Assembly (NCBI GenBank): GCA_021158265.1
Contig: JAGGUY010000009.1
Span: 1 to 32,828, forward strand
Length of the DNA: 32,828 bases
Source of the DNA: Thermoprotei archaeon
GTDB lineage: Archaea; Thermoproteota; Thermoprotei_A; EX4484-217-1
Direction of reading: 5' to 3'
Below the pieces are notes generated by a model, which made no database searches, was not told the origin of the DNA, and saw only the letters and a program-made list of their open reading frames with translations. Shown here piece by piece: positions 2,206 to 32,668 of this stretch. The position numbers were made by a program, and so were the translations under genes. Each line of letters begins with the position of its first letter. Position 1 is the first letter of the stretch.

Positions 2206-2271
2206 GCTCCGATGACGAACGCGCCCTTCGTGAGGAATAGCTAATGACGAAGGGTGCAAACGCTGAGGAGC
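2206..2271 (+). ncRNA. C/D-box guide sRNA candidate
   Basis: Terminal stem GCTCC(2206-2210)/GGAGC(2267-2271) encloses C-box GATGA (2211-2215) and D-box CTGA (2263-2266). Internal C'-like AATGACGA (2243-2250). Confidence 0.65.
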
Positions 2272-2276
2272 ACATA

Positions 2277-2579
2277 ATGGAAATTGTGGGTGATTTGTTA
2301 TTGAGCGAAGCTAGAGCGTATATTAGGGTTTATGGTAGGGTTCAAGGTGTAGGCTACCGTTTCTTTACAGAGCGTCATGCTAGAAGGCTTGGGCTGAAAG
2401 GTTATGTTAGGAATTTAAGTGATGGTTCCGTAGAAGTAGTTGTTGAGGGAGATAGGATAAGGATAGAGGAGCTTATTGAGAGACTTAGGAAGGGGCCATT
2501 GTTAGCTAAGGTTGAAAGAATAGATGTGAGATGGGAGAAACCTAAAGGCGAGTTCTTCACATTCACAATACTATTTTAG
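2277..2579 (+). CDS. acyP: Acylphosphatase
   Basis: RVYGRVQGVGYRFFTERHARRLGLKGYVRNLSDGSVEVVVEG is the acylphosphatase signature. Start at 2277 (MEIVGDLL) preferred over track start 2244, which overlaps the sRNA. Confidence 0.9.
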   Translation: MEIVGDLLLSEARAYIRVYGRVQGVGYRFFTERHARRLGLKGYVRNLSDGSVEVVVEGDRIRIEELIERLRKGPLLAKVERIDVRWEKPKGEFFTFTILF

Positions 2580-15855: not shown

Positions 15856-15915
15856 GTGTCAGCGTGAGACTAGGGGTCATCATTTTTCAGAGGCTGCCCA
15901 CCGCATCATCCAGTT
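15856..15915 (-). ncRNA. C/D-box guide sRNA candidate
   Basis: On the minus strand: GGATGATG (C-like, 15904-15911), CTGA (D', 15887-15890), ATGATGA (C', 15877-15883), CTGA (D, 15859-15862). Confidence 0.65.
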
Positions 15916-15944: not shown

Positions 15945-16901
15945 TTATCCTTCAATGATTTCTACTTTTGCGCCATCAGCGATGCTTGCCTCATAAATGT
16001 GTGTTTTAATTTCTCTCCTAGAATATTCTTCGACAATATACTCTTTTATTTTCTCAAGAGTCTGTTTCGAAACATTGGGCTCAAACATTACAAGTATTGA
16101 GGGTCCGGCTCCGCTAACGCATACTCCTAAGGCACCCATGTTCTTTAATTTCTCTTTTACTTCAAAATATAATGGTAGTATAGGTTTTCTAGCAGGTTCA
16201 ACTATTGAATCTTCCATACCTTCGCCAGCTAACTTTAGATTTCCTGTTATAAACCCCGTAATTAGCGCTGCTATTCTTCCAGTATTTAAAACAACATTTT
16301 CTAAAGGAATCATTTTAGGAATTAAGGATCTTGCATATTTTGTTTTATCCTTAATTATTGAGGGTTCTGGAGATATGATTATAATTTTTGGCTTAATCTT
16401 TAACGGGATCTTCACTACTTTCAAGGGTCTTCTACTGTATATAAGAACTATTCCGCCAAGCAAGCTTGCTGCAACATTATCTGGGTGCGGTGCTCCTGCA
16501 GCAGCTTTTTCTCCTTCAGCGGCTATTTTAACTAGCTCATTAACATTGCTTATATTAAATGCCTTTGCTAGTGCGGCTACTGTCGCCGCGGCTGTCGCAC
16601 CACTACTACCAAGCCCTCTACCTACGGGAACGTTTTTTACTATTTTGAGCTTAATTTCCGCCTCTATATTGTATCTTTTAAGAAATTCTTTGGCAGCAGC
16701 TGTAGCTGTGTTTTCACTTATTGGTACATAGCTGCTATAGGGGCCGCTAACATTAACTGTTTCTATACGTGTAGTGCTTGACTTCTTTATTTCAACAATG
16801 ACTTCGTCGTAAAAGAGATCTATAGCCATAGCTAATACGTCGTATCCCGGTCCTAAATTTGCGGATGAACTATATGCTATAGCTTTGAGCTTCATTGTCA
16901 T
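15945..16901 (-). CDS. thrB: Homoserine kinase
   Basis: NLGPGYDVLAMAIDLFYDEV, VPVGRGLGSSGATAAATVAALAKAF (GHMP motif), GAPHPDNVAASLLGGI, GVCVSGAGPSILVMFE. Confidence 0.94.
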   Translation of the reverse strand: MTMKLKAIAYSSSANLGPGYDVLAMAIDLFYDEVIVEIKKSSTTRIETVNVSGPYSSYVPISENTATAAAKEFLKRYNIEAEIKLKIVKNVPVGRGLGSSGATAAATVAALAKAFNISNVNELVKIAAEGEKAAAGAPHPDNVAASLLGGIVLIYSRRPLKVVKIPLKIKPKIIIISPEPSIIKDKTKYARSLIPKMIPLENVVLNTGRIAALITGFITGNLKLAGEGMEDSIVEPARKPILPLYFEVKEKLKNMGALGVCVSGAGPSILVMFEPNVSKQTLEKIKEYIVEEYSRREIKTHIYEASIADGAKVEIIEG

Positions 16902-16943
16902 TACCCTAAAACACTTATATTCTGCTAACGTGAGAGATTAACA

Positions 16944-17007
16944 TGTCCGATGAGGAAACAGGGACGTTCGGATACGTTATGAAGAAAGGTGGAGCGACCT
17001 GAGGATT
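16944..17007 (+). ncRNA. C/D-box guide sRNA, dual-guide, probably targeting 16S rRNA
   Basis: TCC-GATGA (C, 16949-16953), CGGA (D', 16969-16972), TATGAAGA (C', 16978-16985), CTGA-GGA (D, 16999-17002). GGTGGAGCGAC next to D is complementary to archaeal 16S GTCGCTCCACC; CAGGGACGT next to D' is complementary to 16S ACGTCCCTG. Confidence 0.85.
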
Positions 17008-17012
17008 CCTCA

Positions 17013-17255
17013 CTAGCTTGTGCTTATTAGTGTCACTGTTTTAAGTACTCCACTCATTCTTCTAATAGTACTAACCAGTTTGTCTAGTATCGTTAGTGTA
17101 GGAGCTTCTATCCTAACAACAATATCGTATTCGCCATAGACTATTTTCGCCTCAGTAACATAGTTTAATTTTGAAATTTCCTCTCTTAACGTAGCCTCTT
17201 TACCTAATGCTACATTTAGTAGAACGTATGCTACAATATTCTCATTTCCACTCAA
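17013..17255 (-). CDS. Stand-alone Lrp/AsnC ligand-binding (RAM) domain protein
   Basis: VAYVLLNVALGKEATLREEISKLNYVTEAKIVYGEYDIVVRIEAPTLTILDKLVSTIRRMSGVLKTVTLI; no HTH. Confidence 0.88.
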   Translation of the reverse strand: MSGNENIVAYVLLNVALGKEATLREEISKLNYVTEAKIVYGEYDIVVRIEAPTLTILDKLVSTIRRMSGVLKTVTLISTS

Positions 17256-29239: not shown

Positions 29240-29298
29240 GCTCAGAGGCCTACCTTCTCCATCACCAAATTCGGCTCCTAGCCTGCTCATCATTGCTT
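29240..29298 (-). ncRNA. C/D-box guide sRNA candidate
   Basis: On the minus strand: C ATGATGA (29287-29293), D'-like CGAA (29270-29273), C' GTGATGGA (29258-29265), D CTGA (29242-29245); short flanking AGC/GCT complementarity. Confidence 0.65.
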
Positions 29299-32212: not shown

Positions 32213-32278
32213 CTCAGATGATGAAGTCGACATAGGCTTAGCGTTTAAGCTATGACGAGGGGTCGATAGGCTGACACT
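32213..32278 (+). ncRNA. C/D-box guide sRNA candidate
   Basis: C ATGATGA (32218-32224), D'-like CTTA (32237-32240), C' TATGACGA (32251-32258), D CTGA (32271-32274). TATA-like ATTAAATATA at 32183-32192. Confidence 0.72.
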
Positions 32279-32284
32279 CAAATT

Positions 32285-32668
32285 ATGAGAGGCTGTGTGG
32301 TCTTGGTTAAGTTCTTTAATTTCGACAACATAGCTGTTGTTGAAAGAGAAAATTACTTTAGAAGTATTTTTGAGGTTTTAGAAGTAAGTAGTGAGCAAAT
32401 AGGCCTGTTAAAGGTCATTATTCCTTCAAATACTACTGCTAGAAAACATTACCATAGAGAACACTTTGAAATATTCATTTTCCTAAGGGGTAGAGGTAGG
32501 GTTCTTGTGGAATCGCAAAGGAATACAAACGAGTACTATGTTACTGAAGGCTCAATACTAATTATTGAGCCAGGTGAAAAACATACTGTGGAAGCTCTAG
32601 ATAAACCCTTAGAAATTGTAGTAATTAAGGTACCGCATAAGCCTGAGGATAAAGTGTTAGAAGGGTAA
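32285..32668 (+). CDS. Cupin-domain protein
   Basis: ARKHYHREHFEIFIFLRGRGRVLVE...EGSILIIEPGEKHTVEAL. Confidence 0.82.
   Translation: MRGCVVLVKFFNFDNIAVVERENYFRSIFEVLEVSSEQIGLLKVIIPSNTTARKHYHREHFEIFIFLRGRGRVLVESQRNTNEYYVTEGSILIIEPGEKHTVEALDKPLEIVVIKVPHKPEDKVLEG

Follow-up and report, generated by a model that had tools for sequence, protein, structure and literature searches.

A putative C/D box guide sRNA aimed at two nearby 16S rRNA sites in a Thermoprotei archaeon, with a shifted helix 44 guide register

Between two genes on the reverse strand of the stretch of DNA analyzed here (32,828 nucleotides from a Thermoprotei archaeon; hereafter the window), a short segment at 16944-17006 on the plus strand resembles a small guide RNA, which raises the question of what it encodes and which RNA it would act on. 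Our preferred answer, to which we give a probability of roughly 0.86, is an archaeal C/D box guide sRNA of ~62 nt, transcribed on its own, that would direct two 2'-O-methylations in 16S rRNA. The boxes, the covariation of the terminal stem, the complementarity to the 16S rRNA of a sister genome, and the conservation of the guides, their order, and the locus directly support this reading.

We analyzed the arrangement of the segment, which reads UGUCC-G-AUGAGGA-AACAGGGACGUU-CGGA-UACGUU-AUGAAGA-AAGGUGGAGCGAC-CUGA-GGAU, in the order stem, C box, D' guide, D' box, linker, C' box, D guide, D box, and stem. All four boxes that define the C/D class (C, D', C', and D) are present in the correct order at 16950-17002(+). 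They had been noticed in an earlier sequence-only reading together with complementary TCC/GGA ends, and these ends belong to a real GUCC/GGAU stem, in which the 5' arm GTCC (16945-16948, plus strand as for all following elements) pairs with the 3' arm GGAT (17003-17006). The C box AUGAGGA (16950-16956) has one mismatch to RUGAUGA, the C' box AUGAAGA (16979-16985) likewise deviates from its consensus at one position, and the D box CUGA (16999-17002) is exact. The D' box CGGA (16969-16972) has one mismatch to CUGA and is identical in the window genome (G000) and its two sisters, G001 and G002. The guide spacers are AACAGGGACGTT for D' (12 nt, 16957-16968) and AAGGTGGAGCGAC for D (13 nt, 16986-16998), the norm of the class being ~12 nt, and the D'-C' linker TACGTT (16973-16978) is 6 nt long, compared with 4 to 5 nt in the sisters.

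AUGAGGA and CUGA together form the C/D k-turn, with tandem G-A pairs, the G-C pair expected between the sixth C-box base and the first D-box base, an NRU bulge (GAU, 16949-16951), and the GUCC/GGAU stem; between this stem and the C-box tandem GA lie exactly 3 nt (GAU), as k-turn geometry demands. A C box placed one step upstream (CCGATGA) was rejected, as no 3-nt bulge would then precede a stem. With AUGAGGA, all three family members show the stem and the GAU bulge, and an equal geometry is seen in most loci of Pyrodictiaceae described below; automatic box calling produced no stem in two of the other genomes, G154 and G197. The internal C'/D' motif (AUGAAGA with CGGA) keeps the G-A, A-G, and G-C pairs, whereas A-G replaces U-U, and this state is conserved in the three family members. 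According to PMC7994747, the k-turn test of SnoReport requires the U-U pair, and the C'/D' motif of the window is without that uridine.

The four-box architecture occurred five times in the real window versus none in six order-1 Markov shuffles of it. Furthermore, the terminal stems of 14 loci summed to 69 base pairs, compared with a mean of 27 when the arms were swapped between loci, and none of 20000 swaps reached as high a value, although the 14 loci are related by descent, so that the swap result is no formal probability. This covariation is independent evidence for a predicted structured RNA on the plus strand. A TATA-like box, CTTATATT (16914-16921, plus strand), precedes the terminal stem, with its center 26 nt away, and TATA-like 8-mers stand at the same distance in the sisters (TTTTTTAA in G001 and TTTTTAAG in G002). 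The constant 26-nt spacing in all three family members suggests that the putative sRNA is driven from its own promoter.

Next, we examined the rRNA targets of the two guides. The window's own assembly, which is 60% complete, was searched for 16S, 23S, fibrillarin, and Nop genes, and none of them was found; the assembly being so incomplete, their absence is probably a gap. Genes for fibrillarin and Nop stand next to each other in G001, G002, and G003, the three nearest relatives. As the 16S gene was missing, target sites were examined in the 16S rRNA of the nearest sister, G001 (L012). The 16S and 23S (L229) genes of that genome exceed the family models by ~700 nt each, probably owing to introns; the 16S target region is uninterrupted. 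The D guide GGTGGAGCGAC (16988-16998) forms 11 contiguous Watson-Crick pairs with GTCGCTCCACC, starting right at the D box, and the D' guide CAGGGACGT forms nine pairs with ACGTCCCTG through guide positions 2-10 (16959-16967). Complementarity next to both D and D' was thus found in the sister rRNA, and the two sites lie 28 nt apart in the same molecule (...GGTGAATACGTCCCTGCTCCTTGTACACACCGCCCGTCGCTCCACCC...). In G001 itself, position 9 of the D guide is mismatched (GGCGGAGCGAC). Positions are given in E. coli numbering, which presumably holds, as it comes from an alignment to the E. coli 16S sequence and agrees with that of the sequence-only reading. By the N+5 rule for the methylated position, as given in PMC4644070, the predicted bases are C1409 for the D guide and U1380 for the D' guide. 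The sequence-only reading had expected an 11-nt perfect complement of the D guide, a D' site some 25-30 nt upstream in the same rRNA, and methylated bases near these two positions, and had proposed aligning both guides to 16S rRNA as a check; run on the sister sequence, the alignment bore out each expectation, with both sites present. Among 2000 shuffled guides, 11 pairs were reached twice for D and nine pairs 22 times for D', and no shuffled guide pair out of 2000 had both sites within 60 nt.

Further C/D candidates were observed in the window. A candidate at 2212-2266(+) has a 6-bp terminal stem (TGCTCC/GGAGCA) and a 3-nt GAT bulge, overlaps the start of an open reading frame at 2244-2579(+), and carries a D' guide, ACGCGCCCTTCG, with 11 pairs to the G001 23S rRNA near position 50. 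Another, at 32218-32274(+), lies just upstream of an open reading frame at 32285-32668; the best matches of its guides are imperfect and ~25 nt apart in the sister 23S rRNA, so that it is possibly a second near-site dual guide. A third at 15859-15909(-), ~36 nt downstream of the kinase gene described below, has candidate sites in the sister 23S rRNA for both guides, one with eight pairs from the D box. Finally, a C/D-like four-box candidate at 29242-29293(-) showed no strong target in the sister 16S or 23S rRNA and may be an orphan guide or a chance occurrence.

We then compared the locus among relatives. In the window, the sRNA is flanked by two minus-strand genes, an intact GHMP kinase, probably a homoserine kinase (15945-16901), and a protein with an Lrp/AsnC ligand-binding domain (17013-17255). 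It occupies the same locus in both sisters, on the strand opposite the flanking Lrp-like and kinase genes, and its guides and boxes are almost invariant across G000, G001, and G002, whereas the flanks diverge. A pattern search found no such sRNA in G003, which belongs to the same order. The kinase gene spans two separate frames in G001 (L052 2498-3251) and is interrupted by stops in G002 (L055), which reflects either gene decay or poor assembly. The sRNA is kept where the sister kinase genes are broken, indicating that the RNA outlives its neighbor.

Outside this family, 231 genomes of the class were searched for both guides together. The same pair in the same order was found in G154, which represents one further family, and in Pyrodictiaceae-type genomes, with five more once longer linkers were allowed, and ten Pyrodictiaceae loci were analyzed (G188, G190, G024, G197, G205, G048, G045, G010, G196, and G200); the reversed order was found in none of the 231 genomes. 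A match in G056 was discarded as chance, its surroundings not being box-like. A guide-pair scan of all species genomes returned at least 100 stretches, mostly chance bacterial matches, and only those with C/D boxes were kept. The Pyrodictiaceae RNAs share with the window RNA the two guides, their order, the k-turn geometry with a covarying stem, and the D' target U1380. They differ in that their D guide stands in the G1408 register, their D' box is CCGA or CAGA, their D'-C' linkers are mostly longer, and they lie in another gene neighborhood. On the opposite strand of the G154 locus, slightly overlapping its sRNA, a second C/D-like RNA was observed (L162 1137-1193(-); best Rfam match sR41, below threshold).

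These contexts bear on whether the segment might instead lie in the 5' leader of the kinase gene or serve as an antisense regulatory element, with the rRNA match incidental. Its position between two opposite-strand genes, 43 nt from the kinase start, would suit such a role. However, we consider this extremely unlikely, as the sRNA persists in both sisters beside a broken kinase, the same guides recur in unrelated gene contexts of Pyrodictiaceae, the boxes and the stem covary on the plus strand, and the chance of the dual match is negligible.

The helix 44 guide was also analyzed by itself. Its sequence, GTGGAGCGAC, stands beside a D-type box in 76 of the 231 genomes, some of these being chance matches, among them essentially all Sulfolobaceae-type genomes (family f9; the names of the f-numbered families are presumptive, with Rfam matches among their basis). 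The gathering score of sR2 (Rfam RF01139) is exceeded in three Sulfolobaceae-type loci that carry this guide. Across the window, only a tRNA was found at Rfam gathering scores; the best match of the window RNA is sR2, end to end, but its 18.7 bits fall short of the 42-bit gathering cut-off (E = 0.029 for 201 bases). Like Sulfolobus sR2, the window RNA has GTGGAGCGAC next to the D box and a C' box of the RUGAAGA type. Unlike sR2, it carries a D' guide for 1380 along with a terminal stem, and it has one nucleotide fewer before the D box, which moves the prediction from G1408 to C1409. The 1380 guide was absent from the Sulfolobaceae-type and family f10 loci, where the partner guides are unrelated. 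In the Sulfolobaceae-type loci L199-L213, only a few bases separate the end of the sR2-like RNA from the start codon of a gene whose reading frame opens like an acylphosphatase, and this upstream context is conserved. In family f7 (L168-L184), the helix 44 guide appears to be the D' guide, followed by C' and a second guide resembling GAGCGACTTTCC, so that it would have another partner and the other position.

The D' half is the weakest part of the dual-guide claim, with a D' box that departs from consensus and lacks the usual uridine and a duplex of only 9 bp. Because of this box and the short pairing, the D guide on helix 44 could be the only one that directs methylation, with the D' duplex mainly aiding binding. 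The C'/D' combination of CGGA with AUGAAGA, which lacks the usual uridine pair, would fit such a single guide, as would the wide distribution of the helix 44 guide by itself (the 76 genomes above, chance matches included) and its unrelated partners in Sulfolobaceae and in family f10. In contrast, 14 loci from three families share the D' guide core AGGGACGU without change, although this core belonged to the search pattern, so that its invariance is partly by construction. The register is not, and it points to U1380 in 13 of the 14 loci, those of the window family and Pyrodictiaceae, with A1377 predicted in G154. Conservation of the D' register in two families argues that the D' position matters, and we regard a single working guide as somewhat unlikely.

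Bases 1408 and 1409 of helix 44 line the decoding site, and it is here that the register of the D guide varies. Counted from the D box in 52 loci, and read by the N+5 rule, the register is G1408 in all 48 loci of families f7, f8, f9, f10, and f15, where GAC and one more base precede the D box. In the window family, one nucleotide is missing before the D box in 3/3 loci, so that the predicted base is C1409 instead of G1408; in G154, two are missing and the register is U1410. The guide-rRNA duplex is thus retained while the predicted methylated base steps from 1408 to 1409 to 1410. We propose, with confidence evenly divided, that the guide register drifted, such that loss of one nucleotide would have moved the helix 44 methylation from G1408 to C1409 (to U1410 in one genome), selection having kept the duplex rather than the exact base.

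The same drift would also fit selection on pairing itself, in which case the main role of the duplexes would be to hold segments 1377-1385 and 1405-1415 open while the 16S rRNA folds, methylation coming second. This would suit the positions of the segments, which lie on either side of the 3' strand of helix 28, the D target being one strand of helix 44. Nevertheless, the register is fixed within families, at 48/48 in five others and 3/3 in the window family, and such sRNAs normally have their two sites near each other (PMC7994747); we therefore consider it unlikely that a chaperone function comes first. The sequence-only reading was right in proposing a dual-guide C/D sRNA for two nearby 16S sites, but the special coordination or chaperone-like role that it drew from their closeness is unsupported beyond plausibility, since near-site dual guides are the norm. 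PMC7994747, citing Lui 2018, states that most archaeal rRNA-directed C/D sRNAs are dual guides with sites within 100 nt, and the published chaperone proposals, as presented in PMC4644070, rest mainly on sites distant in sequence.

In our preferred reading of a dual methylation guide, L7Ae would bind the C/D k-turn (AUGAGGA/CUGA with the GUCC/GGAU stem) and the C'/D' motif, and the L7Ae-bound sRNA would recruit Nop5 and fibrillarin. The D guide would then pair with the upper 5' strand of 16S helix 44, placing a 2'-O-methyl group at C1409, and the D' guide would pair just upstream in 16S, placing another at U1380. Transcription, assembly of the sRNP, and methylation itself are steps that we infer.

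Comparable systems are known. Methylation at the equivalent of A1408 has been predicted in S. acidocaldarius and N. equitans, according to PMC4644070. The same paper describes the A512/G491 group (Tte sR114, Pca sR28, and Sac sR115), which similarly has two conserved guides for neighboring sites of the decoding region, although in another 16S segment, helix 18. In actinobacteria, the methyltransferase TlyA-II 2'-O-methylates 16S C1409, the predicted base of the window RNA (PMC7317525); TlyA-II is a stand-alone bacterial protein enzyme, whereas the window RNA is predicted to act in an RNA-guided manner, so that the target is the only shared feature.

The window RNA is an additional member of the known C/D class, and its helix 44 guide is itself already known. 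It adds one well-supported sRNA family, apparently without a name so far, to this large class. The register shift is a new detail, of modest weight, and the main source of interest, as it offers a natural test of whether selection acts on the exact position of the methyl group or on the pairing between guide and rRNA.
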